Source: Pigmentibacter sp. JX0631
GTDB taxonomy: Bacteria > Bdellovibrionota_B > Oligoflexia > Silvanigrellales > Silvanigrellaceae
NCBI RefSeq assembly: GCF_029873255.1
Contig: NZ_CP123622.1
Location: 962,501 to 1,026,500, forward strand
Direction of reading: 5' to 3'
DNA length: 64,000 bases
The notes below the pieces were generated by a model that did not search any database, was not told the DNA's origin, and saw only the letters and a program-made list of their open reading frames with translations. Of the stretch, positions 21,100 to 57,700 are shown piece after piece. Every line of letters starts with the position of its first letter. The stretch's first letter is position 1. The position numbers and the translations under genes are program-made.

Positions 21100-22215
21100 A
21101 TGAATCCGAGCTACATTTTGCGCACAAGTTGTCCTGTTTGTCAGGGTAAAGAAATAAATTTGCATTATTCAAGCCATTTTCCCATACTACCAATTTGCAC
21201 AGAAAAAAAAGTTGAATTTGATATCAACATCCCCTTTGAAATAGGAATATGCAATGAATGCGGTCTCATTCAGTTAACGAAACTAGTGGAACCTTCTCTA
21301 CTCTATGACAATTTCCACTCTGAAGGTCTTGGTGAAACATGGAATAATCATTATGAGGCATTTTCAAATATAATTAAAAAACTACCAGTTAGGGTAGCTT
21401 TAGAAGTAGGAGCTGGTCAGGGTAAATTAACAGAAAAATTAAAAGAAAAGTTGCATTTGACTGTAGTTGATCCTTTATATAGAGGTAATAGAAATAATAT
21501 TGAAGTTTTTAGCACTATGTTTGATTCGAATATAAGCGACACTATGATGGGTAAATTTGAAATGGTTTACTCTTCCCATACTTTAGAACATTTTTATGAA
21601 TTCAATGAATATTTTCAAAATTCTTTTAAAGTTTTGCAAAGTAATGGATTTTTAGTTACCGCTGTTCCAAATTTAGAATTTTCATTTAACACAGGTTATA
21701 CAAATACTTTAAATACCGAACATACTTCTATTTTAAGTCTATCGCATCTTATAAATCTACATCAAAAAAACGGATTTATAATTAAAAGTATAGAATATTA
21801 CAAAGATCATAGTATTTATATTACTTCTCAAAAATCAGAAAAAATAAACACAAAGATAAATTCAGTAGAATATTCTCAGGTTTTACTTGAAAATTTTATT
21901 CTTCGAATAAAAAACAAAATTGATATTATTAGAAATAGAGCTAATGATAAAAAAATTAATTATCTTTTTGGTGCGAGTAACTTTGCTCAAACATTATTTG
22001 CATTTGGTTTACAAGAAAATTATTTTTCTAATTTATTAGATAATAGTGATATTAAAGCAAAAAAAAGACTATATGGAACTAATTTAGTATCTCTTCATCC
22101 AAAAGATATTGACCTTAATTCTGCTCGAATTTTTATTAATGCAGGGACATACTCAAAAGAAATCAATATTCAGCTTAAAAAATTAAACCAAAATATTGAG
22201 ACAATAATACTATGA
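21100..22215 (+). CDS. SAM-dependent methyltransferase with N-terminal zinc-binding domain
   Basis: 371 residues in the order found in sugar C-methyltransferases. A zinc-binding module carries CPVC (about 10-13) and CNECG (about 52-56). A class I methyltransferase core follows, with motif I ALEVGAGQGKLTEKL (about 103-117) and SSHTLEHFYEF. A C-terminal domain begins near YLFGASNFAQTLFAFG, like the C-methyltransferase C-terminal domain. Such enzymes methylate NDP-keto-sugars, so a branched or methylated sugar is suggested. AAAGGATG precedes the ATG. It opens the cassette operon and overlaps the next gene by four bases. The exact acceptor cannot be read from sequence. Confidence 0.85.
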   Translation: MNPSYILRTSCPVCQGKEINLHYSSHFPILPICTEKKVEFDINIPFEIGICNECGLIQLTKLVEPSLLYDNFHSEGLGETWNNHYEAFSNIIKKLPVRVALEVGAGQGKLTEKLKEKLHLTVVDPLYRGNRNNIEVFSTMFDSNISDTMMGKFEMVYSSHTLEHFYEFNEYFQNSFKVLQSNGFLVTAVPNLEFSFNTGYTNTLNTEHTSILSLSHLINLHQKNGFIIKSIEYYKDHSIYITSQKSEKINTKINSVEYSQVLLENFILRIKNKIDIIRNRANDKKINYLFGASNFAQTLFAFGLQENYFSNLLDNSDIKAKKRLYGTNLVSLHPKDIDLNSARIFINAGTYSKEINIQLKKLNQNIETIIL

Positions 22216-22925
22216 ATTTATCTATCGTAATTCCTTGTTTTAATGAAGAAAAGGCAATTCCTATTTTACTTGAAAAATATTATAATATTTCACTACTTAT
22301 ACCTCTGCAATTAATTCTTGTAGATAACGGCTCTACCGACAATACGAAAGGAATTATTGAAACTAAAAAATTAGATCCTAAGTTTAATTTTGTTACTTTT
22401 TTAAGAATTGAAAAGAATGTGGGTTACGGTCATGGAATTATGTTTGGAATAAAACATACTAAAACAGACTTTATTGGATTTACTCATTCAGATTTACAAT
22501 GCGATCCTGATGATATATTAAAAGCATACAATAGAATTTTAGAAATTGATCCAAATGATACTAAAGTTTTAATTAAAGGAAGAAGAATAGAAAGGCGGAA
22601 AGAGGAAAAATGGATTTCAGCAAAACTTGACTCTATTGCTTCTTTTTTGTTTTTTAGAAAATTTCATGATATTAATGGACAACCAAAAGTTTTCCATCGA
22701 TCACTTTTAGATTCATATATTTACTATCCAGTTGATATAACATTTGATGTATTTGTAACTTATAAAACAAAGCAACTAGGTTATCAAATAATTGATTTTC
22801 CTGTTTACTTTCATAAAAGACAATTTGGAAAATCAAGTTGGAATACTTCTGTTTTAAAACGTTGGAAAACCATTCTATCATTTTTTAAAACAATACTTTT
22901 TTTAGTATTTAAAATATATAAATAG
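22212..22925 (+). CDS. Family 2 glycosyltransferase (dolichyl-phosphate mannose synthase-like)
   Basis: The 237-residue GT-A enzyme begins LSIVIPCFNEEKAIP and continues with LVDNGSTDNT (nucleotide-binding Asp) and FTHSDLQCDPDDI (the metal-binding acidic motif). The gap GYGHGIMFGIKHT matches the G-x-x-x-A-x-x-x-G region of DPM/GtrB-like members. The C-terminus is hydrophobic (about 218-236) and could associate with the membrane. It probably transfers a sugar to a lipid or a growing glycan on the cytoplasmic face. Overlap (ATGA) with the methyltransferase gene shows translational coupling. Donor and acceptor are unknown. Confidence 0.85.
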   Translation: MNLSIVIPCFNEEKAIPILLEKYYNISLLIPLQLILVDNGSTDNTKGIIETKKLDPKFNFVTFLRIEKNVGYGHGIMFGIKHTKTDFIGFTHSDLQCDPDDILKAYNRILEIDPNDTKVLIKGRRIERRKEEKWISAKLDSIASFLFFRKFHDINGQPKVFHRSLLDSYIYYPVDITFDVFVTYKTKQLGYQIIDFPVYFHKRQFGKSSWNTSVLKRWKTILSFFKTILFLVFKIYK

Positions 22926-22937
22926 GATCTAAAAATT

Positions 22938-23624
22938 ATGATTTTTCAAAAAAACAAAATTAAAACAGTTGTTTTCGACCTTGACGATACATTAATTCCT
23001 TCTTCACAATTTTATCATGATTCATATCTTCTATGTGGAATTGACAGCCAAGGTGAAAATTTTAAAACAGCTAAAGAACTTGTTAAAAAAAGTTTAGGTA
23101 ATAATCACACAAGCTCTCATAATAGAATTTTATACTTTAAAAAATACTTAGAACTAGAAAATAATTTCACTTCTAAAAATCTCATCTCATTAGTCACAAA
23201 GTATAATTTCTACTTAAAATTACTAATAAAAGATTTTATTGAAAAATCTAAAAGAAATCTCCTCTTTAGACAATTAAAAGAAAAATATACATTAGCAATT
23301 ATTACTAATGAAACAACATTAAGTCAAATTATAAAATTAGAGGAAATTGATTCAAATGGGGAATTTTTTAGCAATATAATAACATCTGAAGAAATTGGGG
23401 TTGAGAAACCATCAGATGAAATTTATCAATATTTTTTTAAAACTTGTCAGACTCTTCCAGAAAACTGCCTATTTGTTGGAGACAACTTCACAACTGATCT
23501 CCAAAAACCAATTTTACTTGGCGCAAGTACAATACTAACTCAAGAATTTAATAATGAAAACGATGACTATCAAATTAATTGTACCAAAATAAAATCTCTA
23601 GAAGAATTAAAAGAGGTCTTATAA
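22938..23624 (+). CDS. HAD-family hydrolase (probable phosphatase)
   Basis: All four HAD motifs are visible in the 228 residues: VVFDLDDTLIP (motif I, nucleophile Asp and acid/base Asp near 15-17), IITNET (motif II), the Lys of EKPSDEIY (motif III) and FVGDNFTTD (motif IV). The alpha-helical cap between motifs I and II is of the C1 type. In this cassette a dephosphorylation step next to an aldolase and a nucleotidyltransferase suggests action on a sugar-phosphate intermediate, which is an inference. It lies 12 bases after the GT2 gene and 2 bases before the aldolase gene. Confidence 0.85.
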   Translation: MIFQKNKIKTVVFDLDDTLIPSSQFYHDSYLLCGIDSQGENFKTAKELVKKSLGNNHTSSHNRILYFKKYLELENNFTSKNLISLVTKYNFYLKLLIKDFIEKSKRNLLFRQLKEKYTLAIITNETTLSQIIKLEEIDSNGEFFSNIITSEEIGVEKPSDEIYQYFFKTCQTLPENCLFVGDNFTTDLQKPILLGASTILTQEFNNENDDYQINCTKIKSLEELKEVL

Positions 23625-23626
23625 AC

Positions 23627-24577
23627 ATGAGTATAAATGAACTTATTACAGCTTCAAATCTTATTGGAAATAAAATACCATTGTGGAATCAAGGAAAAGG
23701 CGGTAACTGTTCTTTTAAAAACAACTTAATAGATAATATTATATGGATAAAAGCATCTGGATACAGATTAGATAAAGTATCTTTAGAATCAGGACTCGTT
23801 TCAGTTGATATAGACAAAGCATCTAAAAAACTATTAGAAATATTTCATCAATTTTCAAATAGAGACATTAATTACGATGATGAGAAAGATTATGAGAACA
23901 TTTTATTAAATTCTGCTTATCATACAAATTCTAATTTAAAACCTTCAATGGAAACAGGACTTCATATTGTCTTAAAAAAAGATTTTGTTTTTCATTTCCA
24001 CTCAACTGCAGCATTAATAATGTATGAATTTAAAGATAAAACTAATGAATTCTATAAAAAATATCCTCAGTATAAAGTATCTTTTATAAAATTTATACAA
24101 CCTGGTCTTGAGTTAGCTTATGAAGTATGGAAAAAAAATGAAAGTGATATTTTTATTTTACAAAATCATGGTGTTATTTTACAATCAAACAACATAAATA
24201 TATTAAAATCATGGGAAATGATGGAAAAAGAATTTTTTCAATTTATAAAACGCCCTGATGTGAATAAATTATACACGTCTAATGCTAATTTTTCCTTAAA
24301 AGGCTCATCAGCCCCTCTTAAATTTTACTTCCCCGATTCATTAGTTTTTGAAAATAATTTAATTTCAATTTTAAAATTTATAAAGACAAAAAATGGTCAA
24401 AATTATTATGAAATAGATCCTCTCAAAAAAGAATTAGATAAAAATGCTTTTGAGCTTTGGGAAGCCACGTCTTTAATTTATAATTATTTCCCACAAACGT
24501 TAGAAATACCCAAAGAAGCGGGAAAAAGAACAATCGATCTTCCTTTTGAAAAACATAGAGTTTCACAAACACAATAA
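23627..24577 (+). CDS. Class II aldolase/adducin-family protein
   Basis: I start at the ATG 23627, with AGAGGTC upstream; the longer frame back to 23579 only overlaps the HAD gene. The 316 residues show the family landmarks: GKGGNCSFK near 24-32 (phosphate loop), MSINELITASNLIG helix, the zinc ligand pair in HFHST (about 123-126) and the third ligand in LQNHGVIL. Enzymes of this type split or join fuculose- or rhamnulose-1-phosphate, or epimerise ribulose phosphate, via a zinc enediolate. The C-terminus (about 220-316) is not typical of fuculose aldolase. The neighbours suggest it makes a phosphorylated precursor for an NDP-sugar. Confidence 0.8.
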   Translation: MSINELITASNLIGNKIPLWNQGKGGNCSFKNNLIDNIIWIKASGYRLDKVSLESGLVSVDIDKASKKLLEIFHQFSNRDINYDDEKDYENILLNSAYHTNSNLKPSMETGLHIVLKKDFVFHFHSTAALIMYEFKDKTNEFYKKYPQYKVSFIKFIQPGLELAYEVWKKNESDIFILQNHGVILQSNNINILKSWEMMEKEFFQFIKRPDVNKLYTSNANFSLKGSSAPLKFYFPDSLVFENNLISILKFIKTKNGQNYYEIDPLKKELDKNAFELWEATSLIYNYFPQTLEIPKEAGKRTIDLPFEKHRVSQTQ

Positions 24578-24592
24578 TGAGGATTATAAAAC

Positions 24593-26152
24593 ATGTCCAA
24601 AATAAAAATTCATTTGTTGATTCCCATGTCTGGCGAAGGAATTCGCTTTCAAAATTATGGTTATACTATTCCTAAACCTCTCGTTCCTATTTCTGGTGAA
24701 CCAATGATATCAAGAGTACTTGATAATTTCCCAGAGCATTGGGAATCACATTTTGTCATATCAGAGAATCATGCAAAAACACAATTACCCAGTATACTAA
24801 AAGATCTAAGAAAGAATTGTAACATATCGATAATTCCCCCCCATAAATTAGGTCCTTCATTTGCTGCACTTGAAGCCTTAAAACATATCCCCGTCAATGA
24901 ACCTGTTTTTGTCAGTTACTGTGATTATGGAATGATTTGGGATAGTAGCCAATTTGAAAGATTTATTGTCGATTCTTCTTGTGAGATCGCCCTTGTTTCT
25001 TATCGAGGATTCCATGCTCATTATTTAACAAGCCAAACTTATGCCTATTCAAAAATGAGTGGTGAGTTGGTAGATTGTGTGAAAGAAAAAGGATCTTTTA
25101 CAGATAATAGAGAGAATGAATTTGCATCTAGTGGTGGATATTATTTTCGTTCAGCTGGTCTATTAAAAGAATGTATTGATTTTCAAGTATCTAAAAATCT
25201 CAGCTATAATGGAGAGTTTTACACGAGTTTAACAGTTCAAGCATACTTGCAACAGAATCCATTAGCTCATGTAAGAGTATTTGAAATACCGGGTTTTTTT
25301 CAATGGGGAACCCCAGAGGATATTGTAACTTTTGAATATTGGGAAAAAACTTTTCGAGCATACAATCGAAATCAAAGACAACCAATTAAATACACTGAGC
25401 AAATAATCATGCCTATGGCAGGAAAAGGCTCTCGATTCTTAGAAAGTTCAAAACGTCCTAAACCATTTATAGATATAGATGGAATTCCAATGTATGAGAA
25501 AGCTTTGCAATCATTACCTCAAGCAAAAAAAACGAATATCATTATGCTTGATGAACATAAATCATATATTACTCATTCAAACTATAATTTCACTTCCCTA
25601 TCCGAAACACCTAACGGTCAAGCATTAAGCACAGAATTCGGTTTCCTTAACGTTGACATGAACAAAGATGTTATTGTTTCCTCCTGTGATCATGCAATTG
25701 TCTTGGATAGTCAAGTATGGCAAGAATTTCAAAAGATAAAAGATTGTGACGCGGCTATTTTTACAGTGAAAAGATATCCAGGAGTTGCTAGAACACCCCA
25801 TTCATATTCATATGTTATCATTGATAATCTAGCACATCCAAACAACTTCCCTCTCGTAAAAGGAATATCATTAAAAGCTCCTACTACAGAAAATCCTTTA
25901 GAAGAAGAGCTTCTTGTTGGAACCTTTTGGTTTAAAAAATGTTCTTTATTAAAACAAGGGATTGAAATGTTAAAAACTTCTCATTTTGATCTGAATAAAG
26001 AATTGTATCTTGACAGTATTTTTAATGTACTTATTCAAAATAATTATAAAGTATTATCAATACCATTAGATGGATATATTTGCTGGGGAGATCCCCAGGC
26101 ACTAAAAGAATCGCAATATTGGTATGAAATATTCACATGCAAAAAGGTATAG
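24593..26152 (+). CDS. Tandem-domain sugar nucleotidyltransferase
   Basis: Two nucleotidyltransferase-like (GT-A fold) domains are fused in 519 residues. Domain 1 (about 1-255) has MSGEGIRF and IPKPLVPISGEPM; domain 2 (about 264-519) has MAGKGSRF and RPKPFIDIDGIPM. Both keep the G-x-G-x-R-F nucleotide loop and the following PKP Lys, and each has a metal-site-like acidic patch (VSYCDYGMIWD, SSCDHAIVLD). Each also ends in a WGxPxx motif. This suggests internal duplication with both halves possibly active. The family forms NDP-sugars from sugar-1-phosphates and NTP. Base or sugar specificity cannot be told. A run of seven C at 24836-24842 lies in frame. Confidence 0.8.
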   Translation: MSKIKIHLLIPMSGEGIRFQNYGYTIPKPLVPISGEPMISRVLDNFPEHWESHFVISENHAKTQLPSILKDLRKNCNISIIPPHKLGPSFAALEALKHIPVNEPVFVSYCDYGMIWDSSQFERFIVDSSCEIALVSYRGFHAHYLTSQTYAYSKMSGELVDCVKEKGSFTDNRENEFASSGGYYFRSAGLLKECIDFQVSKNLSYNGEFYTSLTVQAYLQQNPLAHVRVFEIPGFFQWGTPEDIVTFEYWEKTFRAYNRNQRQPIKYTEQIIMPMAGKGSRFLESSKRPKPFIDIDGIPMYEKALQSLPQAKKTNIIMLDEHKSYITHSNYNFTSLSETPNGQALSTEFGFLNVDMNKDVIVSSCDHAIVLDSQVWQEFQKIKDCDAAIFTVKRYPGVARTPHSYSYVIIDNLAHPNNFPLVKGISLKAPTTENPLEEELLVGTFWFKKCSLLKQGIEMLKTSHFDLNKELYLDSIFNVLIQNNYKVLSIPLDGYICWGDPQALKESQYWYEIFTCKKV

Positions 26153-26163
26153 TAATATAAAAT

Positions 26164-28194
26164 ATGAATAAAATAAATTTTATAAAAATAAATTCTATAT
26201 CCAAAGTATTCTTAATTGGACTATTGCTTCGTTTATTTTGTCTATCTTATGATAATACTCTTTATTTAAGTAAATATTTCATTCCTTTTATCGATTGGAG
26301 TATCCTTCATCCTTTCGAAAATCCTTGGAAAGAGTTTCCACCTGTTTATTTTCCATACGGTTCATTTATTTATCTTTCATTGTTATTATCAAAAGCATTT
26401 GGTTATCTCATTTTTGGAGCCAGTTCATTAGGAGATACTGTCCTTAGCAATATTTTTATTAAAGCACCTCTCTTTTTATTTGACATATTACTATATAAAG
26501 TAATTGAAAAATTTACACATTCCAACAAGAATATCAATTATTTTTATTGGTTAAACCCTATTGTGATTTATGTTACTTATATTCTAGGATCAATTGATAT
26601 TGTTTCTATGTCTTTGTGTTTTTTGTCGTTACTTTTATTAGTTAGAAAACAGTATATTGCTTCTAGTATAGTTTTATCACTAGCTTGTTTGAGTAAATTT
26701 CATATATTTATTATTTATCCATTTATGCTCGCTTACATATATAGGTCTAATTTTTTATCAACTTCAATATTAAAAATAACAAAATCTATTCTAGTTTTTT
26801 TAATAATACTCTTTATTGGTCTTATTCCTATTTTACAAAGCGGACATTTATTATACGTATCCTTTGCTTCACCCCAAGCACTAAGTATTTTTTCACTTGC
26901 CTACAAAATAGATGATTCCTCATACTTATTTTATGGATTACTGTTCTTGTCAATTATTTTATATCGGCTTGTTTTTTCAGCTAATATTAATGAAAGAGGA
27001 TTGATTTTTGGAAGCAGTATTATTTTTTCTCTTTTAATCATTATAACACCGCCAGTAGCTAATTGGTATATTTGGTTAGTTCCTTTTTATTGCATATTCT
27101 TCATAATGTATAGCAATTCTCCAAAAAAACTATACTATTTATTTATCGCAACTTATACAGTAAAGTTCATAATTTTAAGTCATTTTAAAAATACCCCTAT
27201 TATTATGAATTCCTTTTTAATAACAGCTCTTCAGTCAATAGTAATTTTAATTGCAATTTACATGTGGATTCTTGTAATTATACATGACTGCCCCATAGGA
27301 AAAAAAATAAAACCAATTGTAATTGGGATATCAGGAAATTCAGCCGCCGGTAAAAATACTTTAAGTTTTGTCATTTCCAAACTATTTGAACAAAAAGCTC
27401 TCACAGTAATCGATGGAGATGACTATCATAAATGGGAAAGAGGAAATGAAAGATGGGAAAAAATAACTCATTTAGATCCCAAAGCTAATAACCTCCATTA
27501 TTTATTTACCCACCTTACAAATATTTTTAGAGGAAGATCTATTTATAAAACTTTTTACGATCATAGTAATGGTAAATTTACACCATTTAAAGAAGTAAGA
27601 TCTTCACCAGCAATTGTACTTCAAGGACTTCATATTTTTTATCAAGCAAAACTTCGCAGATATATTGACATTAAAATTTTTCTTGATCCAAGTGATGAAA
27701 TTATTTTATATTGGAAAATAAATAGAGATGTCAATGAAAGAAACTATAAACTCAATGACGTATTGAAATCCATTGAAAGAAGATATGAAGACACTAAAAA
27801 ATATATTACTCCTCAGAAGCAATATGCTGATTGGATAATAAATTATTTCCCATTGCATGAAATATCTAGAGAAGAAATTTTAGCTGGTAAAAAACCAATA
27901 CTAGCAGTAAAACATATTCTATATAATGACTTTCCAAGTGATGAACTTTCGCATGCTCTTTTAAGCTCTTGTAATGTTGAAATTAAAGTTAATTCCTTTC
28001 AAAATGACATTAATAAAATTGAAATAACCATTCTTCAAGAGCCTAGTGCACATGATATTTACAAAGCATCTATTGTACTTTTTGATAATTTGCCATCGTT
28101 ACTTCGTTTAAGTCACCCTCCAAAATGGAGTTCTGGTTTTCAAGGTATCAATCAACTCATTTTTTTAATCCTAATCAATAAGAGTTATATGTAA
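26164..28194 (+). CDS. Membrane glycosyltransferase (GT-C-like) fused to a uridine-kinase-like domain
   Basis: Residues 1-375 form a multi-pass membrane domain (about ten segments) with a loop rich in aromatic residues (WSILHPFENPWKEFPPVYF) after TM1, as in GT-C mannosyltransferases using lipid-phosphate donors. Residues about 384-590 are a phosphoribulokinase/uridine kinase-type P-loop domain: GISGNSAAGKNT (about 388-399), then VIDGDDYHKWER, and IVLQGLHIFY. The residue after the Walker A Lys is Asn rather than Ser/Thr. A third region (about 600-676) is unrecognised. The fusion suggests coupled phosphorylation and transfer. The end overlaps the next gene start. The GT-C call rests on topology. 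Confidence 0.7.
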   Translation: MNKINFIKINSISKVFLIGLLLRLFCLSYDNTLYLSKYFIPFIDWSILHPFENPWKEFPPVYFPYGSFIYLSLLLSKAFGYLIFGASSLGDTVLSNIFIKAPLFLFDILLYKVIEKFTHSNKNINYFYWLNPIVIYVTYILGSIDIVSMSLCFLSLLLLVRKQYIASSIVLSLACLSKFHIFIIYPFMLAYIYRSNFLSTSILKITKSILVFLIILFIGLIPILQSGHLLYVSFASPQALSIFSLAYKIDDSSYLFYGLLFLSIILYRLVFSANINERGLIFGSSIIFSLLIIITPPVANWYIWLVPFYCIFFIMYSNSPKKLYYLFIATYTVKFIILSHFKNTPIIMNSFLITALQSIVILIAIYMWILVIIHDCPIGKKIKPIVIGISGNSAAGKNTLSFVISKLFEQKALTVIDGDDYHKWERGNERWEKITHLDPKANNLHYLFTHLTNIFRGRSIYKTFYDHSNGKFTPFKEVRSSPAIVLQGLHIFYQAKLRRYIDIKIFLDPSDEIILYWKINRDVNERNYKLNDVLKSIERRYEDTKKYITPQKQYADWIINYFPLHEISREEILAGKKPILAVKHILYNDFPSDELSHALLSSCNVEIKVNSFQNDINKIEITILQEPSAHDIYKASIVLFDNLPSLLRLSHPPKWSSGFQGINQLIFLILINKSYM

Positions 28195-28841
28195 TGCAAC
28201 TACCAACTTTCGTTAGACATAGAGTTAATAGTATAAAAGATTTAAGTAATCATGCGCCAAACTGGGGAGCTGAAATTGATATTCGATCAAATGTTAATAT
28301 CCCAGGGGAGCTTCATCTTTCCCATGATCCATGGACATTAGGAGATAATTTTGACTTATGGCTCAATGCTTTTGTAAAATTAAATATTTCTGGGCCACTT
28401 ATTCTCAATACTAAAGAAGATGGATTAGAATCAATTCTAATAGAAAAACTTCAAGAAAGAAAAATAACTAATTATTTTTTTCTTGATACTACTCCTCCAA
28501 CTCTTATAAAATATGCTTTTGGTCTGAATATTAGAAATTTTGCTATTAGAGTATCTCAGTTTGAGAATGTCGAAAATGCTTTATTATTTAAAGATCACGT
28601 AGATTGGGTTTGGTTAGATTGTTTTGCTGGTGTCCCTGTAGACATAAACATATTAAAGCCAATCTTACTGCATTTTAAAGTGTGTATTGTTTCACCTGAA
28701 CTCCAATCATGTCAATTAGAAGATAATTATTTAAAATTTCTTCCTCTAGTTCAAAAAGCTAAGTTAATTTGCACAAAGTCTCCTAATTTTTGGTTAAATA
28801 AAATGTTAGACAATAATAAATCTAGAGAAGTCCAGTATTAA
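28194..28841 (+). CDS. GDPD/PI-PLC-like phosphodiesterase-fold protein
   Basis: The 215-residue protein starts with FVRHRVN (about 6-12), then GAEIDIRS (about 26-33) and HLSHDPW (about 42-48), which follow the glycerophosphodiesterase pattern H-R, E-x-D and HD. LILNTKEDG (about 71-79) fits the next strand, and the remaining alternating strands and helices fit a TIM barrel. At 215 residues it is shorter than most GDPDs and has no signal peptide. It is the last rightward gene of the cassette, overlapping the fusion gene by one base. It may hydrolyse a phosphodiester or have been recruited to another reaction on a sugar-phosphate; this part is inference. Confidence 0.65.
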   Translation: MQLPTFVRHRVNSIKDLSNHAPNWGAEIDIRSNVNIPGELHLSHDPWTLGDNFDLWLNAFVKLNISGPLILNTKEDGLESILIEKLQERKITNYFFLDTTPPTLIKYAFGLNIRNFAIRVSQFENVENALLFKDHVDWVWLDCFAGVPVDINILKPILLHFKVCIVSPELQSCQLEDNYLKFLPLVQKAKLICTKSPNFWLNKMLDNNKSREVQY

Positions 28842-28860: not shown

Positions 28861-30783
28861 TTAGAAACGTTTCATTAAAACTAATGGCAAAGAATAAATA
28901 TTATTAATAATTTTCCATTCCTTCCAACCATTTTTAATCAGTTCAGGTATTAAACTTGTACTATTTGGATGAATAACTAACACTTTAATATTTGAATTAT
29001 TTTGTATACAATGAATTAAATCTTGAGAAGGCTTACAATATAAAACTTGATCATAAATCAATCTAGAACTTAAATATTGTTTTATAGTATAATCATTAAT
29101 GATAACTGAAAATACAATATAACTTGGATCTATAACAAACTCATTCCCTGCCAATCCATTGGCTTTTAATTCCTTAAAAACAAGATCATAATTGACTGGA
29201 AATTGAGAAATAACTCCATTCTTATAAATAGGCAAGTTATTTTTAATAGAATCTCCTAAATTAATTTTTACAAATTTTATTTGATAAATATTATACAAAT
29301 TATAACAAATTATAAATATTAAAACAAATGCTGTATATTTATGAAAATATTTATAAATTAAAGACACTATGTAAACAAAGCCTAAAACAAAAAATGGAGC
29401 TACATACTCTGCTTGATATCTCCCCCCCCCCCAGAGAGTACAATTTATAGAGTAAAATAAGCAATATCCAAGAATAAATAACATTAGAGCTAATAAATGA
29501 TTTAATATATTTTTTCTTGCAGTTGGAATAAATGAAAACAATGCAATTACCACCCCACCAATTCCAATTGCATTAGAGATAGATAAATATGGTATTTCAG
29601 TTCTAAAAGATAATATAATTCGTTCTAATACATTATAGTGTAAAGGAATAAAAAAACACTCACCGGGCGAATAAGAAGCAGGAGAAGATGAATATAACAA
29701 TCTAATTATATAAGGAATAGCAGACAGAATAGGTAATAAAAAAATTAATAAATTTTTATAAGTATAATTATATTCTCTTCTTTTAATAATTATGAGTATA
29801 AAAATTGGTATAACTGCTAAAATAGCTGTATGACGAATTAAAGTAAAAATTGAGATAATAGAAACTATTCTTATTATATTTTCAATTGTAAGAGAGCTAC
29901 TATATTTATAGATAAATAGTAATGACAAACTCCAAGCACAACCAGACCAAATAGAGAACTCAAGTATAGTAGATGAATACCATAGAACAGGAATAGTAAC
30001 AACACATAAACTTGATAGAAAAGATAAAAAAAATGAAAAATTATTTCTTATAATTTTAAAGACTGTAAAGCCTAAAAGTAATAAACATAAAATTTGAGGA
30101 AGGAAAAATTGATAATTATTCACCAAACTAATAGAACTAAAAAAAGACGGAAGCAGAGTTCTTAGAGGTGGATGAAATTCAGTAAAACTATAACCACCAA
30201 AATACCTAAAAGAAAACAAATAAAGAAAAATAAAAATACAATTAAAAAAAACATAAATATGCCATGTTTTTTTTAATAATTTATTATGAATAATAAACAA
30301 AACATAAAAAAACATAATTAAACCAATATTTACAAAAAAAAGAGGCCACTTAAAAAAAAGACTATCTATATTTAATTGTGAATATATATCAAACTTAGAT
30401 AAATGATATAATATATTTTTAGTTATTTCTATCGAATAAAATTTTGAAAAATAAGCATGATATATTTGATCTCCAGTTAATGAAAAATCAAACAATTCAT
30501 TATACGAAAAAAGAATTAAAAAAAACAAAATACCTAAGATAACGATAATATCTATTTTTCTAAGAACAATTACATCTTTATATTTTTCATTAGTCAGTGA
30601 TAAATATAATAATAAATTCATTATTGACAACAAAATAAAAGGCTCAAAAAAAATAATTATCTTATTTGTACTAGGTATAATAAGTAAAATATTAAAGCCG
30701 CGTTGTAATGTGTAACTAAATATAAAACATAATAATATAATTTTAAACCAGTTTAAATTTATATAAATTAGATTTTCTTTCAT
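28861..30783 (-). CDS. Membrane glycosyltransferase-like protein (GT-C/GT39-like) with in-frame G11 tract
   Basis: A 640-residue polytopic inner-membrane protein with about 12-14 hydrophobic segments and a C-terminal soluble part (about 520-640). TM1 is followed by loops with acidic residues (FDFSLTGDQIYHAYF, FTEFHPPLRT), the layout of GT-C enzymes. It is the only leftward gene in the IS-bracketed cassette. Codons 451-454 (Trp-Gly-Gly-Gly) are encoded by a T followed by eleven G (complement of 29422-29432). Loss or gain of one G would frameshift the last 186 residues. As sequenced the frame is open. The donor is probably a polyprenyl-phosphate sugar; function is inferred from topology only. 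Confidence 0.75.
   Translation of the reverse strand: MKENLIYINLNWFKIILLCFIFSYTLQRGFNILLIIPSTNKIIIFFEPFILLSIMNLLLYLSLTNEKYKDVIVLRKIDIIVILGILFFLILFSYNELFDFSLTGDQIYHAYFSKFYSIEITKNILYHLSKFDIYSQLNIDSLFFKWPLFFVNIGLIMFFYVLFIIHNKLLKKTWHIYVFFNCIFIFLYLFSFRYFGGYSFTEFHPPLRTLLPSFFSSISLVNNYQFFLPQILCLLLLGFTVFKIIRNNFSFFLSFLSSLCVVTIPVLWYSSTILEFSIWSGCAWSLSLLFIYKYSSSLTIENIIRIVSIISIFTLIRHTAILAVIPIFILIIIKRREYNYTYKNLLIFLLPILSAIPYIIRLLYSSSPASYSPGECFFIPLHYNVLERIILSFRTEIPYLSISNAIGIGGVVIALFSFIPTARKNILNHLLALMLFILGYCLFYSINCTLWGGGRYQAEYVAPFFVLGFVYIVSLIYKYFHKYTAFVLIFIICYNLYNIYQIKFVKINLGDSIKNNLPIYKNGVISQFPVNYDLVFKELKANGLAGNEFVIDPSYIVFSVIINDYTIKQYLSSRLIYDQVLYCKPSQDLIHCIQNNSNIKVLVIHPNSTSLIPELIKNGWKEWKIINNIYSLPLVLMKRF
29422..29432 (-). 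repeat. Poly-G tract of 11 inside a coding sequence (probable contingency locus)
   Basis: Eleven consecutive C on the plus strand (G on the coding strand) fall inside a membrane glycosyltransferase gene. In sequence of roughly 30% G+C such a run is very unlikely by chance. Long G tracts in surface-glycan genes are the classical substrate for slipped-strand phase variation, as in Campylobacter, Helicobacter and Neisseria. The length here keeps the frame open (ON). Confidence 0.75.
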
Positions 30784-42487: not shown

Positions 42488-44281
42488 TTGATAGGGATTT
42501 ATATTCTCCTCATTTTTTTTACTGCGTTTGTTTTATCCTTGTTATTAGTGCCATTAATAATTAAATTTGCGAAAGTCAATAAACTATATGATTTACCAGA
42601 TTTAGTAACTGAAAAAAATCAAATAAACCCTAATGTTTTAAATTACGAAAGTTCCTTTGATCCGCCAAGAAGAATTCACACAAAACCGATACCAAGACTT
42701 GGAGGAGTTGCAATTATTATTGGATTTTTTTCCAGCCTCATCATCTGGAAATTTCCTTTAAACATGGTCGGTATATTTATATGCTCATTTATTATGTTCT
42801 TAACTGGATTTATTGATGATATCAAATCTCTTTCAGCAAAGTTTAGACTTTTTATACAAGTAACAACTTCTTTAGCAGTTGTGTTAATATCTAATTTACA
42901 AATTCATTCCATTGCATTGAGTCAAACAACTTTCTTGCAAATACCTTTTGCATTAGGATTAATATTATCAACCTTTATTATAATTGGTGCAATTAATTCA
43001 ATTAATATGATCGATGGTCTTGATGGATTAGCTGGAGGTGTAGTTCTAATCGGCATATCTCTATTAAGTTATATCTACTTTTTGTCAACCCATAATTTAA
43101 ACTTACTAATTGTTTTTAGTATTCCTATTATAGGAGCTATACTTGGTTTTTTAAAATACAATACACATCCTTCCAGTATATTTATGGGAGACTCAGGTAG
43201 TAATTGGTTAGGATTTATGGTTGGTGTATTTATAATACTTATTATGAATAATTTCACTATTTCAGAAAATATCAGTAAGTTAGATATAATTAGTAATTCT
43301 TCGATGCAATTTATACCCATAATTAGTATAGTATTATGTCTATCAATTCCAATTTTTGATACAGCTCATGTAATTCTATTAAGGTTATTTGAAGGTAAAA
43401 ACCCAATGAAGCCTGATAAAAGACATTTTCACCATTCTCTAATGAAAATTGGATTTACACATTCACAAAGTGTTATTATTGTATATTTTTTAATGCTATT
43501 TTTTGGAATACTCGGAATATTACCTGTTGCATATCCTCAATATGGCCTTACCTGGACTCCTTATGCAGGAATAATATTGCTTATAATTTGTATAACATTT
43601 TCAGTTAAATTAAATGAAGGATTTATTACAAATTTAGCTGGATATAAATTATTCTTAGCTTCTCAAAAAACGACTGGTCCAAGAATATCATTCATTTTAA
43701 AATATTGGGAACATTTAAATCGATATACTATATATTCTATTTTACTTGCAACGCCTTTTTTATCTGATATAGCACCAAAAAATGTTGCTTTAGCTTCTGC
43801 TGCTATGTGTTTTGTTATGATTTGCACAGTTTTTATAAGAAAATCTGACAGCTTTTTTGAATCATTTATCATAGCTATATCAACTACAATTTTACTTACC
43901 GCAAACAATTCAAATATCATTTGGATAGAAATTTTTAGTAATAAGTACAATTTACAAGAGGCATATAATGTTTTATTTATTTGGCTTCTAATAAGTACAT
44001 TACTATTTTTTATCGTCACCTTCAAACGCAAGTATTTAGTTATTGCTCCAACAGATTTTCTTTTAGCAATTTTACCACTTATACTTCTTTTATTACCCAT
44101 TGAAATTCAAAATGAATACAAATTAAATATTATCGCTTTAAGAAGTCTTGTTTTATTTGCAGCCCTAAGAACATTATCTAAAAGACATAATACCTTTTTT
44201 TACAAAGTTCATTTTATCTGTATAATAGCATTAGGCTGGATAGCTTTAACTAGTTTAGCAGGATTAAGATTGGTGCATTAA
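42488..44281 (+). CDS. WecA/MraY-family polyprenyl-phosphate HexNAc-1-phosphate transferase with extra C-terminal membrane domain
   Basis: This membrane enzyme starts glycan synthesis by moving a sugar-1-phosphate from a UDP-sugar to undecaprenyl phosphate. The start is TTG with GGGAG upstream. Motifs: IPRLGGVAI after TM1, FIDDIKSLSAKFRL (catalytic Asp pair), NMIDGLDGLAGG, IFMGDSGSNWLGF and the cytoplasmic KRHFHHSL His motif. This core takes about 370 residues, the usual size. Residues about 385-597 form an additional region with about six or seven hydrophobic segments and no known motif. First large gene of the polysaccharide operon running to about 50.7 kb. Confidence 0.9.
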   Translation: MIGIYILLIFFTAFVLSLLLVPLIIKFAKVNKLYDLPDLVTEKNQINPNVLNYESSFDPPRRIHTKPIPRLGGVAIIIGFFSSLIIWKFPLNMVGIFICSFIMFLTGFIDDIKSLSAKFRLFIQVTTSLAVVLISNLQIHSIALSQTTFLQIPFALGLILSTFIIIGAINSINMIDGLDGLAGGVVLIGISLLSYIYFLSTHNLNLLIVFSIPIIGAILGFLKYNTHPSSIFMGDSGSNWLGFMVGVFIILIMNNFTISENISKLDIISNSSMQFIPIISIVLCLSIPIFDTAHVILLRLFEGKNPMKPDKRHFHHSLMKIGFTHSQSVIIVYFLMLFFGILGILPVAYPQYGLTWTPYAGIILLIICITFSVKLNEGFITNLAGYKLFLASQKTTGPRISFILKYWEHLNRYTIYSILLATPFLSDIAPKNVALASAAMCFVMICTVFIRKSDSFFESFIIAISTTILLTANNSNIIWIEIFSNKYNLQEAYNVLFIWLLISTLLFFIVTFKRKYLVIAPTDFLLAILPLILLLLPIEIQNEYKLNIIALRSLVLFAALRTLSKRHNTFFYKVHFICIIALGWIALTSLAGLRLVH

Positions 44282-44306
44282 ATATACCTGTATTTAGGAG
44301 TACAAG

Positions 44307-45314
44307 TTGATTTTATCTAAATATCATAAACATCTTGAAAAATATATAGTCAGCTTTGGCAATAAAGATATTTTTGATTTTTTGATTTTCATTAATTTAA
44401 ACAAAAGTAGACTATTTTTAGGAATTATCTTCACTATAATTATTGGTTTTATTGTAATTTATATTAACATAAAAAATACTCCTTACATAACTGCTATAAA
44501 AGTAGAGCCTTATTTTGTAAACTCAATTTATCCCACTGATATTAAAAGAAACTTAATCTATTACAATCAAAGTATTAACAGAGAAGAATTTCTTAATAAA
44601 GTATTTAAAGAATTAAATCATTATGACATCAAAAAAATTAAATTTGAAATTGTAGTTAATGAATTTAACCAAAATTCCATTTTGAAATTTTTTTTACCAC
44701 AAGAAATAAATAAAGATGAATCAAATAAAATTATCCAATCATTCTTAGCAGAAGTTAAAAATGAAAACGAAACAATAGCTAAAAATTTAAATTTATTTTT
44801 AAATAATCCCTTTAATTCCAATAAAAATCAACTTGAATTTCAAGAAAATTTAATTCATATTTCTATAAAAATGAAAATAATTATAGATAAGTTAATAAAA
44901 AAATATAAAATAGATTTATCTGCGCAAAATTATAGTAACTCAGCATACATTTATTCATCTTTAGATCATTCTACAGTATTCACTTCAATCATAGGAATTT
45001 TGATTAATTCAAATAAAATCAATTTTAAAGAAATTGAACCCGATATAAAATCTTTTGCAATTCTTAAAAACGATTTTGATATACTATCAAATAATAATTA
45101 TGCTTTAGGCGTAAAACTAAGAGATAGTATTCTTCCTATTTTTAATCCCAATAATTTTGAATATTTGACGATAAATGAAAAGAAAAAATTATTGCAAGAA
45201 AATTTAAAGATTTTTATTTCAATTTTAGTCTTAGGACTTTTAATTTCATTAATTGTATGTTTTTTCATTGATTTTCATAGAAATTATAAAATTCGTTATA
45301 AAGGAAATAATTAG
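44307..45314 (+). CDS. Wzz-like chain-length/polysaccharide co-polymerase protein
   Basis: The start is TTG with AGGAG upstream. Of 335 residues, TM1 is at about 33-52 and TM2 at about 300-322, flanking a large periplasmic helical region. This is the two-membrane-hairpin topology of Wzz-type proteins that set the length of O-antigen or capsule chains. The proline-rich second TM motif of classic Wzz is not obvious, so the call rests on topology and on position between the initiating transferase and sugar genes. The stop codon overlaps the GTG of the next gene by one base. Confidence 0.55.
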   Translation: MILSKYHKHLEKYIVSFGNKDIFDFLIFINLNKSRLFLGIIFTIIIGFIVIYINIKNTPYITAIKVEPYFVNSIYPTDIKRNLIYYNQSINREEFLNKVFKELNHYDIKKIKFEIVVNEFNQNSILKFFLPQEINKDESNKIIQSFLAEVKNENETIAKNLNLFLNNPFNSNKNQLEFQENLIHISIKMKIIIDKLIKKYKIDLSAQNYSNSAYIYSSLDHSTVFTSIIGILINSNKINFKEIEPDIKSFAILKNDFDILSNNNYALGVKLRDSILPIFNPNNFEYLTINEKKKLLQENLKIFISILVLGLLISLIVCFFIDFHRNYKIRYKGNN

Positions 45315-47164
45315 TGTGCGGAATATTTGGCATAATCTCAAGACCGAACGTGTTTAATGAGAAAATTGTTAGGGACGCTCTAAATAAGATATCTCATAGA
45401 GGTCCTGATGATTGGGGGCTTGAAAAACTAGAATTAAAAGACAAATGGGATGTTTGGTTTGGTCAAAGAAGATTATCAATAATTGATCTGTCTTCCGCAG
45501 GTCATCAACCTATGACTAAATTTTTACCTGATAATATTATATCACTATGTTTTAATGGTGAAATTTATAATTTTAATCAACTTAAAGAACAATTAAAAGA
45601 TAATTGGAAGTTCCAATCAGGTACAGATACTGAAGTTATTTTAGCAGGAATTCATTTATTAGGAAATGATTTTTTAAAAAAGCTTAATGGAATGCTTGCA
45701 ATGGCTTTTTTCAATCAAAATGAGCATAAAATTACTTTCGCAAGAGATAGATTAGGAAAAAAACCTTTATATATTTATAAGTCTAAAGATTGCATAGCGT
45801 TTTCATCAGAATTAAAATCAATTATCAATTTAAAATTACCATTAACCATAAATAATGAAGCTTTAGAGTTTTATCGTTGGCTTGGTTACATACCTGCAAA
45901 TCTAACTATTTATAATGAATGTTTTAAGTTAAGCGCAGGCTCTTACCTTAATCTTGATCTCTCTAAAAATAATCTAGAATTAGAAAATGAAACATTATAC
46001 TGGGATCCATTTATTGGATACGGCAGACAATACAAACATTCTTATGATGAAGCGATAGATGAATTTTTAGAATTATTAGATGATGCGACTAAAATAAGAT
46101 TAGTCTCCGACGTACCTGTAGGAGCATTCTTGTCAGGAGGGATAGATTCTTCTTTAGTATTATCGAGTATAAAGAAATTAAATATTCCTAATTTTCAGTC
46201 ATTTACAGTTCAATATGATAATAAAGAATTTGATGAATCTTCAATTGCAATCGAAACATCAAATAATTTAGACATTCCTATTCAATTATTGCATTTAAAA
46301 GAATCAGATTATCAAAACCAAATTCTAAAAATCCCATTTCATTATGACGAACCATTTTCAGATAGTTCACAAATTCCAACAATGGCTATTTCAGAAGCAG
46401 CAAGAAAATTCGTTACAGTTGTTCTAACTGGAGATGGTGGAGATGAGGTATTCTTAGGGTATCCTAGATTTTCCTACACTAAAAAACTTGTCATTATAAA
46501 TCAATTAACAAAATTAATTCCATTTTTAAATAAAACAATTGCTTCTTCTTTAAAAACTAAACTTGGAAAAATACTATTTAGAAAAATATTAAACTTGTTC
46601 TCTGTAAATTCAACAAATTTAGATTCAAAGCTTGAAAAAATAAACGAAATTTTATCTGCTAAAAATGAATTTCAATTATATGATATAATTTTACGAACAA
46701 ATCCAAAATCAAAAACAAATAACCCTTTAAATAATTTTAATAGCTATTTCGAATTTACTAAGAATTGGTATCCTAACTATTCTTGGCAGAATCTTGATAA
46801 TAGAAGCATAGAAGAAAAATTTGCCGCATTAGATCTAGTAACTTATCTAAGAGATGACGTGTTAGTAAAAGTTGATAGAGCAACGATGGCCTATTCTCTA
46901 GAAGCCCGTTCACCTCTGCTAGACTATAGAATTGTTGAATTCGGTACTTCTTTGCCTCTCCATTTCAAAATTCAAAATAATGTCTACAAAAAAATCCTGA
47001 GAGATGCATTAGCGAGAAGGACGCAAGGAAAAGTATTGAGCATGCCCAAAAAAGGATTTGGTGTTCCACTGCCTGCTAACCTTCCAAATGGATCAAATTT
47101 AAATTCTAGATGGAATTTATTTATTGAAAATGAATGGGAAAAATATACTAAGCAACATAGTTAG
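45314..47164 (+). CDS. AsnB-type glutamine-dependent amidotransferase (asparagine synthase family)
   Basis: The GTG start gives MCGIFGII, so that Cys2 becomes the N-terminal nucleophile after Met removal; the class II glutaminase then follows (SHRGPDD, FNGEIYN). The C-terminal synthetase domain (about 230-600) has the PP-loop LSGGIDSSLV (about 275-284) and VLTGDGGDEVFLGYPR. Length 616 residues is typical. In surface-polysaccharide loci AsnB-like enzymes often amidate sugar carboxyl groups (as WbpS) rather than make Asn. The next gene makes a uronic acid, which favours this role here. Free asparagine synthesis remains possible. Confidence 0.9.
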   Translation: MCGIFGIISRPNVFNEKIVRDALNKISHRGPDDWGLEKLELKDKWDVWFGQRRLSIIDLSSAGHQPMTKFLPDNIISLCFNGEIYNFNQLKEQLKDNWKFQSGTDTEVILAGIHLLGNDFLKKLNGMLAMAFFNQNEHKITFARDRLGKKPLYIYKSKDCIAFSSELKSIINLKLPLTINNEALEFYRWLGYIPANLTIYNECFKLSAGSYLNLDLSKNNLELENETLYWDPFIGYGRQYKHSYDEAIDEFLELLDDATKIRLVSDVPVGAFLSGGIDSSLVLSSIKKLNIPNFQSFTVQYDNKEFDESSIAIETSNNLDIPIQLLHLKESDYQNQILKIPFHYDEPFSDSSQIPTMAISEAARKFVTVVLTGDGGDEVFLGYPRFSYTKKLVIINQLTKLIPFLNKTIASSLKTKLGKILFRKILNLFSVNSTNLDSKLEKINEILSAKNEFQLYDIILRTNPKSKTNNPLNNFNSYFEFTKNWYPNYSWQNLDNRSIEEKFAALDLVTYLRDDVLVKVDRATMAYSLEARSPLLDYRIVEFGTSLPLHFKIQNNVYKKILRDALARRTQGKVLSMPKKGFGVPLPANLPNGSNLNSRWNLFIENEWEKYTKQHS

Positions 47165-47172
47165 GAAATATT

Positions 47173-48516
47173 ATGCAAAATCATATGTCAACAGAGATTC
47201 TTGAAATTAAATCAACAAAAATTGGAGTAATTGGCTTAGGTTATGTTGGTTTGCCTTTAGCAATTTCTTTTTCCAAAAAATATAATGTTATTGGTTTTGA
47301 CATAAATAACGAAAAAATTGAAAAATTAAAAGCAGGAAAAGATTATACTGGAGAGATAGAAAATACAAACATTTTAAATAATGATAATATTTTATATACA
47401 TCTGATTATACAGATTTAACAACATGTAAAGTTATAATAGTTGCGGTTCCTACTCCAATTGATAATGGAAATAATCCTGATTTAACTCCACTTTTGTCGG
47501 CTTGCTCCTTAATTGGAGAAATTTTAAAATTAAATTCAAATATTTATTATATTTGTTTTGAGTCAACGGTCTATCCTGGTTGCACAGAGGAAGATTGTAA
47601 ACCATTAATTGAAAAAATTTCTGGCAAAACTCATGGTGTAGATTTTTATTTAGGCTATTCACCAGAAAGAATAAATCCTGGCGATAAAAAACATACATTT
47701 GAAAATATTACTAAAGTAGTCTCTGGATGCTGTAACCATTCACGTGATTTTTTTGCCCAATTATATAATTCGGTTATATCAGCTGGCGTTCATATTGCTT
47801 CCAGCATCAAAGTTGCTGAAGCTGCTAAAATTATAGAAAACACTCAAAGAGACATTAATATAGCACTTATAAATGAATTATCCATAATTTTTTCCAAATT
47901 AAATATTGATACACATGAAGTTCTAAGCGCAGCAAGAACAAAATGGAATTTTCTCGATTTCATTCCTGGCTTGGTGGGCGGTCATTGTATTGGAGTCGAT
48001 CCCTATTATTTGACTTATAAGGCAGAGACAGTGGGATATATTCCAAAAGTTATTTTATCAGGAAGAACAATAAATGATTCAATGGCATCATTCGTTGCTT
48101 CTCAAGCAGTAAAATTGGCTCTAAAAAATAAGCCTAAAAACTCAGAATTATATAGATGTCTTATATTAGGTTTTACATTTAAAGAAAATATTTCTGATTT
48201 TAGAAATACTAAGGTAGCACAAATAATTAATTCTTTAAAAGAATATAATTTCCATACAGACGTTATTGATCCACTTGTAGATAAAAAAGATGTCCATTCT
48301 GAATATAATATTGAAATAAATACTCATTTAAATATTGATTTTCAATTATATGATTGCATTATACTTGCAGTACCTCATCGCGAACTTGTTCCTACAATTG
48401 AAGAAATAATTAATCCAGATAAACAATATAACGGCGTTTTTGTAGATGTAAAAGCATACTTAAATTCAACTCAAATAGCGCAGATATCAAATCACATAAC
48501 TTATTGGCGTCTTTAA
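47173..48516 (+). CDS. UDP-N-acetylhexosamine 6-dehydrogenase (WbpA/TviB-like)
   Basis: This enzyme oxidises C6 of a UDP-HexNAc to the uronic acid with two NAD+. It has the Rossmann motif GVIGLGYVGLPLA (about 18-30), AVPTPID, the Glu in CFESTVYPGCTEE, substrate-binding KVAEAAKIIENTQRDINIA and the catalytic Cys in LVGGHCIGVDPYY. FTFKENISDFRNTK matches the family's K-x-N/D-x-x-D-x-R-N C-terminal motif. The 447 residues are typical. It is nine bases after the amidotransferase gene, so an amidated uronic acid (HexNAcA-amide) is a reasonable inference. Confidence 0.92.
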   Translation: MQNHMSTEILEIKSTKIGVIGLGYVGLPLAISFSKKYNVIGFDINNEKIEKLKAGKDYTGEIENTNILNNDNILYTSDYTDLTTCKVIIVAVPTPIDNGNNPDLTPLLSACSLIGEILKLNSNIYYICFESTVYPGCTEEDCKPLIEKISGKTHGVDFYLGYSPERINPGDKKHTFENITKVVSGCCNHSRDFFAQLYNSVISAGVHIASSIKVAEAAKIIENTQRDINIALINELSIIFSKLNIDTHEVLSAARTKWNFLDFIPGLVGGHCIGVDPYYLTYKAETVGYIPKVILSGRTINDSMASFVASQAVKLALKNKPKNSELYRCLILGFTFKENISDFRNTKVAQIINSLKEYNFHTDVIDPLVDKKDVHSEYNIEINTHLNIDFQLYDCIILAVPHRELVPTIEEIINPDKQYNGVFVDVKAYLNSTQIAQISNHITYWRL

Positions 48517-48550
48517 TTTTATCGAGTTAATTTTAAATTAGGATTTTAAT

Positions 48551-49465
48551 ATGAATAATAATTTTGAAGATATCATTGACAAATCAATTTTTCAAAATGT
48601 GATTATAAGAAATAATTTTATTCAAAGTACAGACATAAATATTCAATATACCGGAAATGCAGAAACGGTTAAATCATTTGGAGAAGAATGGAATATTTTT
48701 AAACATTCTGATTTATCCTTAACTGAAACAGCTGCAAAAGAATATTTTGACGTTTTTCCATTAGAGCAATTAAATAAAAATTGGATTGGAGTAGATGTTG
48801 GCTGCGGTACTGGAAGATGGGCTAGAAGAATTAGCCCCTATGTAAAAACTCTGTACGGCGTAGATCCTTCAGAAGCGATAAATATATTTATGGAAAATAC
48901 TAAAAATGATGACAACATCATTCCAGTTAAGGCGTACGCAGAAAATTTGCCGTTTCAAGATAAATCTATCGATTTTGCTCTTTCATACGGAGTCTTACAT
49001 CATATTGAAAAAACCGAAGAATCAATAGCAGAAATAAATCGAATCCTAAAAAATGATGGTATTTTTCTTTTTTATTTTTATTATAATTTAGATAACAGAT
49101 CTTTTTTGTTTAAATGCATTTTTTTAATTGTAAATATTATGAGAAAGTGTATTAGCAAATTTCCTCCATTTTTAAAAAAAATAACATGCGATTTACTAGC
49201 AGCATTTATTTATTTGCCATGTGTTATTCTAGCAAAAATAGTTAAATTAATTTTTGGTGAAAAACTAGCTGAAAAACTTCCTCTTTCTTCCTACAGAAAC
49301 AAAAATTTTTATATAATGAGAAATGATAGCCTTGATAGATTTGGGACACCGCTTGAAAAAAGATATTCAAAAGAACAATTAACAAAACTTCTAAAAGATA
49401 ATGGTTTTAAAAATGTTGTATTTTCAAATAATATACCTTATTGGCATGGTTATGCAGTAAAGTAA
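48551..49465 (+). CDS. Class I SAM-dependent methyltransferase
   Basis: The 304-residue protein has motif I GVDVGCGTGRWARRIS (about 81-96), the acidic VDPSEAI at strand two, and SYGVLHHIEKTEESIAEI, all typical of the Methyltransf_11 group. The region about 180-240 is hydrophobic and may touch the membrane or a lipid-linked substrate. In this operon it probably methylates a sugar or a glycan end. RBS TAGGA. The substrate cannot be read from the sequence. Confidence 0.85.
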   Translation: MNNNFEDIIDKSIFQNVIIRNNFIQSTDINIQYTGNAETVKSFGEEWNIFKHSDLSLTETAAKEYFDVFPLEQLNKNWIGVDVGCGTGRWARRISPYVKTLYGVDPSEAINIFMENTKNDDNIIPVKAYAENLPFQDKSIDFALSYGVLHHIEKTEESIAEINRILKNDGIFLFYFYYNLDNRSFLFKCIFLIVNIMRKCISKFPPFLKKITCDLLAAFIYLPCVILAKIVKLIFGEKLAEKLPLSSYRNKNFYIMRNDSLDRFGTPLEKRYSKEQLTKLLKDNGFKNVVFSNNIPYWHGYAVK

Positions 49466-49488
49466 TTTGAATATTAAGGTAAATTTTA

Positions 49489-50718
49489 ATGACCATTCCG
49501 TTCTTGACACCTACTATATTTTTTATATTAGTTACGATTTTTATCATGTACAAAAATGGAAAATATTTTTTTTACAAATTTCTATTTTTATTTGTTTATT
49601 TATTTTTAACCTCATTTTTTCTTAAAAGAGAGCCTGATCATTATACTTACTTAAACTTTATGACAAATACTTATACGTCTATAAGTACTGCTTTAAAAGC
49701 AAATAGCGGAGTTTATACTTTTGCAGCTTCTTTAGTGTATATTATTAACCAATTTGTTAGGTCTATTGATTTAAGTATTTTAATTAATAACAGCTTTACA
49801 ATAACATGTATTATTTGTATACCAAATATTTTTTCTAATAATAATTCAATTATTCCTTTAAAAAAACATATATTTCAATTAGCTTTAATTATACTTTCTC
49901 CTATGATAGTCACTTCAGGAAAAAATATGAATAAAGATTTAGCAGTTTCATTTTATTTATGTCTTTCTTTTTATACATTTTACTACATGATTGAAAAAAT
50001 GAGAGAAATTATACATTTAAAAATTAAAGATATAACAAATATTATATTTATGATACTGTTATTTATCATTTCTACTACCTATTTAAATTTTGTAAGATCA
50101 TCTTTGTGTAGTATTTTTATTGTGTCTATAATTATTTTTATTATATCAAAAATTTTATATTTTATTTTTAATAAAAAAGTACATATAAATTTTATAAGTA
50201 TAATTTTAATTTTTATTTCAATATCATACATTCAATTGTTTAAATGGGATAGTTTAATTTTCTCTCAATCCGAAAATCTAGGTAACGCTACGATAAAAGA
50301 ACTTCAAGGATTAAGTCAGCCTTATATTTTTGATACTCTTTTTTACTCTTTGCAAGGATATTTTTATTCTTTTTTTGGAATATACATTTCACAATTAAGT
50401 ACAAACACATTATCTTTAATTAACTTTATCCCTTCTGTAATAATAAATATCACGTATTTAATTTTAATAATCAAATTGATTAAAAGTGATAAAAATAATC
50501 TAACATTACAAAATCTCTGTTTTTGTTTTATATTTTTTCATATTGGAATACAAATATGGGGTACACCAAATTATTCAAATTTATTTAGACAACAAATTCC
50601 TGACGTTTTTCTAATTGCAATTTTTTTACTTATCCATAAAATGAAGCTAAAAGATAATAAAGTTGAACCTCCAAATTATTCAAATATACAAATATCTGTT
50701 ATTAAGAATTCTAATTAA
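49489..50718 (+). CDS. Polytopic membrane protein, probable Wzy-type glycan polymerase
   Basis: 409 residues, strongly hydrophobic, with about 10-12 transmembrane segments and a larger hydrophilic loop near residues 265-290. It starts with two N-terminal segments and FFLKREPDHYTYLNF, which resembles the EpsG/Wzy-like D-x-x-x-Y pattern. Polymerases are known to be weakly conserved, so the call rests on topology and on its place in a Wzz-containing locus. It is the last gene of this rightward block, followed by a 353-base intergenic region. Confidence 0.6.
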   Translation: MTIPFLTPTIFFILVTIFIMYKNGKYFFYKFLFLFVYLFLTSFFLKREPDHYTYLNFMTNTYTSISTALKANSGVYTFAASLVYIINQFVRSIDLSILINNSFTITCIICIPNIFSNNNSIIPLKKHIFQLALIILSPMIVTSGKNMNKDLAVSFYLCLSFYTFYYMIEKMREIIHLKIKDITNIIFMILLFIISTTYLNFVRSSLCSIFIVSIIIFIISKILYFIFNKKVHINFISIILIFISISYIQLFKWDSLIFSQSENLGNATIKELQGLSQPYIFDTLFYSLQGYFYSFFGIYISQLSTNTLSLINFIPSVIINITYLILIIKLIKSDKNNLTLQNLCFCFIFFHIGIQIWGTPNYSNLFRQQIPDVFLIAIFLLIHKMKLKDNKVEPPNYSNIQISVIKNSN

Positions 50719-52804: not shown

Positions 52805-52809
52805 AATAA

Positions 52810-55620: not shown

Positions 55621-55764
55621 TTCGTATTCTCAAATTAAAATATTTTTAAAAATTCTTATAAATTAATTAACTATTCTCAAGATTAATAAAATCTTAAAAA
55701 ATCTTATTAATCTTATAAAACATTTTACTGTCACTTACATTAAATAACTTCCTATAGTTCATCT

Positions 55765-57632: not shown

Positions 57633-57672
57633 TTTATACTGAATTCCCCTGCTTAAAAAGTAAAATACAAAG

Positions 57673-57700
57673 ATTATACTTTATAAATAAATATTGACAC
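57673..57700 (-). promoter_or_regulatory. Promoter of the epimerase-GT2 unit
   Basis: On the minus strand GTGTCA (57700-57695) and a perfect TATAAT (57678-57673) are 16 bases apart, about 40 bases upstream of the epimerase ATG. This is the best promoter-like sequence in the gap 57633-57815. Confidence 0.45.

Follow-up and report, generated by a model that had tools for sequence, protein, structure and literature searches.

The glycosyltransferase gene and its G tract

The window analysed here is a stretch of 64,000 nucleotides from Pigmentibacter sp. JX0631 (genome positions 962501-1026500), whose genome is assembled as a single contig of 3,654,982 bp with 98.8% completeness and whose affiliation with the Bdellovibrionota, suspected from the letters of the sequence, holds. 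It carries a gene for a 640-aa protein, predicted to be a membrane glycosyltransferase, that contains a run of eleven G residues (G11) on its coding strand (Table 1). Together with the preceding T, these residues form codons 451-454, read as TGG GGG GGG GGG, an assignment that had been proposed beforehand and is borne out by translation of the open reading frame. The G+C content is 28.6% in the window and 22.5% in the tract-bearing gene, and the next-longest G/C runs within the 64-kb window are two C7 runs.

Table 1. Features of the glycosyltransferase locus, its surroundings and the second G11 (positions refer to the window unless marked as genome positions).
Feature	Position	Strand	Basis or detail
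G11 tract (C11 on the + strand)	29422..29432	-	T + G11 = W451-G452-G453-G454; genome 991922-991932
Tract-bearing gene, predicted 640-aa multi-pass membrane glycosyltransferase (GT-C, PMT_2-like)	28861..30783	-	ORF, translation, PF13231
3' part removed when the tract changes by 1 or 2 bases	28861..29421	-	Last hydrophobic segment (458-480) and C-terminal domain, 186 codons
LWGGGRYQ motif codons (family pattern L-W-G-x-x-R-Y-Q)	29413..29436	-	Residues 450-457; homologue alignment
Convergent cluster, predicted glycan precursors	21100..28841	+	20 bp separate its end from the glycosyltransferase stop
Large surface-polysaccharide cluster, start	42488..58985	.	Runs on past the window end; holds the second G11
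Second G11	genome 1036962-1036972		In frame, HddA-like GHMP kinase; lies 45 kb from the first tract and 10.5 kb beyond the end of the window

The 640-codon frame is uninterrupted at the assembled tract length of 11, which is of the form 3n+2. When the alternative frames were computed, tract changes of -1, +1, -2 and +2 gave products of 460, 477, 476 and 461 aa, respectively, the shifted frames reaching a stop after about 6-23 codons, while changes of three bases in either direction preserved the frame. These computations agree with the original prediction that the frame is open at eleven and that a gain or loss of one or two bases removes the last 186 residues. A change of one or two bases therefore cuts the protein from 640 aa to 460-477 aa, as is expected of a contingency locus, and the truncation would probably abolish glycosyltransferase activity.

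In a profile search, the protein matched PF13231 (PMT_2) at 6.5e-07, with 30.1 bits against a curated cut-off of 26.1, although the match spans only residues 204-355. Together with roughly a dozen hydrophobic stretches, this match is consistent with a membrane glycosyltransferase of the GT-C type, the kind of enzyme that had been anticipated. Searches of solved structures, NCBIfam, PHROGs, plasmids and viral contigs returned no match, and a structure prediction from a three-sequence alignment reached a pLDDT of 40 and was not used. Seven further genomes of the genus lack the gene. A search of 96 genomes turned up relatives in only two others, both in another family of the same class, with 21-22% identity in the full-length alignment; a scan of contigs that used the protein alone yielded no relatives, while a scan with the alignment recovered two loci, which encode the two homologues already known.

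In both, the tract region aligns without gaps, with LWGLARYQ and LWGGARYQ in the homologues against LWGGGRYQ here, and W451, G452, R455, Y456 and Q457 are invariant across the three sequences. The two homologues encode the motif with mixed codons and have no long G run. The ungapped alignment indicates that the assembled tract length gives the right spacing and that the downstream frame is real, so that eleven can be taken as the full-length (ON) length.

The convergent cluster encodes a methyltransferase, a GT2 glycosyltransferase, a HAD phosphatase, a class II aldolase-like protein, a two-domain nucleotidyltransferase-like protein, a PRK/uridine-kinase-like protein and a product without a match. 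Directly before it lies an ISKra4-family transposase gene (19583-20962), which suggests an acquired island, and the tract gene and the cluster together fit such an island devoted to a surface glycan. The large cluster further along encodes a Glycos_transf_4 protein, asparagine synthase, UDP-sugar dehydrogenase, a methyltransferase, an ABC transporter, a GT2 glycosyltransferase and an epimerase. The 676-aa protein at 26164-28194, within the convergent cluster, combines a phosphoribulokinase/uridine-kinase-like C-terminal domain (residues 382-602) with an N-terminal half that has no match; it adjoins the two-domain nucleotidyltransferase-like and aldolase-like proteins, with which it possibly forms an unusual glycan-precursor pathway. 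A CHASE2-domain adenylate/guanylate cyclase is encoded at 33169-35544, near the glycosyltransferase gene.

The second G11 and long runs in the genome and genus

The second G11 lies in a GHMP kinase gene, where it codes for the conserved motif RISFGGGGTDL. The kinase matches the NCBIfam model for HddA (NF049969) over residues 138-467 at 2.2e-81, with a score of 273.9 bits that lies below the curated cut-off of 600 bits, and it possesses an additional N-terminal CBS domain besides its GHMP domains; the exact substrate is therefore uncertain, and it is designated here only as an HddA-like GHMP kinase. In all six listed kinase homologues, the longest G run at this motif is at most five. Nearby genes encode, among other products, a cytidylyltransferase and a further nucleotidyltransferase, a NeuB-family synthase fused to a TIM barrel, a SIS-domain isomerase, short-chain dehydrogenases and proteins resembling glycosyltransferases. 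Judged by these predicted functions, the surroundings are a capsule or nonulosonate cluster.

A pattern search of the whole genome found 27 G/C runs of at least 7 and only five of at least 8, namely three of exactly 8 and two of exactly 11, with none of 9 or 10. The two runs of at least 9 in 3.65 Mb are thus the two in-frame G11 tracts. One of the 8-base runs lies as C8 in a PPP motif of a valyl-tRNA synthetase-like gene, another at a site without an ORF of 50 codons, and the remaining one in a gene whose product we take, from our own reading of its sequence, to be an FAD/NAD-binding-type protein. The genome-wide search for long G runs in glycan genes that the original prediction had proposed was thus mildly positive, the sole other run of at least 9 being in a surface-glycan gene.

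Several expectations bear on whether such runs arise by chance. From base composition, we estimate about 0.004 runs of at least 11 in the genome. From protein sequences and codon usage, taken from 87 ORFs of the genome in which GGG makes up about 10% of glycine codons, about 0.10 would be expected per genome (two or more, P about 0.005), a figure inflated by the presence of both tract genes in the sample. Six congeneric genomes together contain 158 runs of at least 7 and 15 of at least 9 but none of at least 11, and extrapolation of this genus tail gives 0.24 runs of at least 11 in the genome (two, P about 0.025). The probability that both G11s fall in glycan genes by chance is 0.0025 to 0.01 if such genes make up 5-10% of the genome, a coincidence that was noticed post hoc. 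Across the genus, 3 of the 17 tracts of at least 9 are glycan-associated, with P ranging from 0.01 to 0.24 according to the assumed gene share. The two G11 runs are more than chance would give, but not overwhelmingly so.

Evidence that G tracts change comes from G003 and G007, nearly identical genomes of one sister lineage, which were compared at loci other than the G11 gene. In a receiver-domain gene (L127 versus L128), G003 carries G9 with a split frame and G007 carries G7 with 268 codons open, in surroundings that are 99% identical. At a second site, C9 in G003 faces C5 in G007, with a net difference of three bases; at a third, the G10 of G007 has the same length in G003 but is interrupted by two substitutions. 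None of the three long tracts is common to both genomes, and one is a pure change in repeat number that alters the frame. This frame-changing difference between near-identical genomes indicates that G tracts are labile in the genus, with the reservation that the draft assembly of G003, in 130 contigs, may contain a tract error.

Other tracts of G9-10 in the congeners fall for the most part outside glycan genes: their sites include dnaX, ribD, a cheA-like gene, a GH3 gene, small protein genes, the vicinity of an antitoxin-like gene and intergenic sequence. The C10 in dnaX, an essential gene of a congener (L065:5995-6004, G004:C7), encodes a conserved EEPPPQ motif. In its own capsule cluster, G007 has a G9 (L052:6032-6040; G007:C1, about 2300531-2300539) upstream of a GT4 glycosyltransferase gene, at nine bases from the start codon, where it could tune expression by spacing; this region is absent from G003.

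Possible slippage switching, known systems and rival explanations

Slippage-driven glycan switching is a well-known kind of system, and the glycosyltransferase G11 may be a slipped-strand ON/OFF switch of a surface glycan, with a second switch in the heptose-kinase-like gene; this is the likeliest reading, and we give it an even chance of being correct. Replication slippage would add or remove G residues in the glycosyltransferase tract, so that lengths of 3n+2 would yield the intact enzyme and changes of one or two bases would lead to an early stop that deprives the protein of its final membrane helix and C-terminal domain. In the OFF frame, a lipid-linked sugar transfer step in the assembly of a glycan presumably displayed at the surface would be lost. 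The second G11 would independently turn the provision of one nucleotide sugar on or off through the heptose-kinase-like gene, and two independent switches could produce up to four glycan states, a variability that may have been selected.

Tracts of more than 7 G belong to a hypermutable class, with rates of 1e-5 to 1e-2 per division (PMC4235727), and G11 exceeds this published length. Tract instability has been measured in wild-type and repair-deficient meningococci alike (PMC4085013). MutS and MutL are present and intact in the genome; missing mismatch repair was therefore rejected as a driver of the tracts, and the slippage rate should be below that of Campylobacter. Intact mismatch repair, the presence of only two tract genes without a phasome, and the location of most G9-10 tracts of the congeners outside glycan genes count against a dedicated system, as does the lack of a glycan bias among tracts of at least 11 in nine sampled frames elsewhere in the phylum. 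The fuller proposal of a minimal two-gene poly-G contingency system that operates with intact mismatch repair and creates four surface-glycan states, perhaps directed against phages or host immunity, is advanced tentatively and is more doubtful than not.

The locus shares several features with the poly-G/poly-C loci of the Campylobacter jejuni capsule and LOS, namely an AT-rich genome, tracts of about 8-11 G inside glycan-synthesis genes, enzymes that slippage would truncate and, for one tract, a location in a heptose-type kinase of a capsule cluster. Unlike the present genome with its intact MutS/MutL, C. jejuni lacks mismatch repair, and strain NCTC11168 has 29 G/C tracts of at least 7, compared with two of at least 9 here (PMC4235727, PMC4965091). 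Its very high poly-G rates are tied to the absent repair (PMC4235727). Switching is proven in C. jejuni, whereas the tracts described here are known from assembled sequence.

Neisseria offers a comparison with mismatch repair in place, as in the present genome. Its phase-variable LPS glycosyltransferase genes contain poly-G/poly-C tracts that are ON at one length modulo 3, and here too the tract lies inside a glycosyltransferase gene. These Neisseria genes, of which lgtG is mentioned in PMC4085013, differ in enzyme family and genomic setting, and the present tract codes for a conserved motif within the final third of its gene. A limited literature search turned up no phase variation reported for Bdellovibrionota or Silvanigrellales. 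If the tracts do switch, slippage-driven surface-glycan variation would extend to the Silvanigrellales, whose members include a parasite of Daphnia and human opportunists that were reported recently, and single-clone genomes of the group would capture just one of several possible surface states.

Alternatively, both tracts could be unselected homopolymers, in which GGG codons piled up at conserved glycine motifs (WGGGR, GGGGTD) and grew by slippage, any switching being a cost; we regard this as a serious possibility, though one that falls somewhat short of even. At both G11 sites the protein calls for three or four glycines, so that silent drift towards GGG combined with slippage would suffice without selection for switching. 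Housekeeping genes of the genus carry G9-10 tracts, including the proline motif of DnaX, the genus tail predicts 0.24 runs of at least 11, which gives a pair P about 0.025, mismatch repair is intact, and in the near-identical genomes substitutions, besides length changes, account for the gain or loss of other G tracts. However, both of the G11s, 45 kb apart, lie in surface-glycan genes, GGG is a minor choice among glycine codons, and an unstable run in a constitutively needed gene should be broken by purifying selection.

An error of sequencing or assembly, whereby the true tract would have another length and the gene would really be frameshifted or its tract shorter, is improbable. Long-read data are error-prone at homopolymers of such length, but both G11s are in frame, the neighbouring genes are intact, and a single contig of 98.8% completeness was assembled; the exact match to the spacing of the homologues in the ungapped motif makes an error of one or two bases unlikely at the glycosyltransferase tract. 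Least probable is an action at the RNA level, in which transcriptional slippage, a behaviour of RNA polymerase on long homopolymers discussed for Buchnera poly(A) (PMC2831843), or ribosomal frameshifting on G11 would give a fixed mix of full-length and truncated protein from unchanged DNA, since the shifted frames end quickly and offer no conserved alternative C-terminus.

Long runs across the phylum

Runs of at least 11 were found in 30 of 58 genomes of the phylum, mostly genomes that are richer in G+C or fragmented, and a good part of these runs lie at contig ends. A phylum-wide poly-G system linked to glycans was considered and rejected, as none of nine sampled coding frames was a recognisable glycan gene and many runs were at contig ends. 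One genome of the same class, G032, contains 48 runs of at least 11 G, and of the 23 on the minus strand, 22 lie no more than about 220 bases from a contig start, a pattern suggestive of an artefact of sequencing or assembly.
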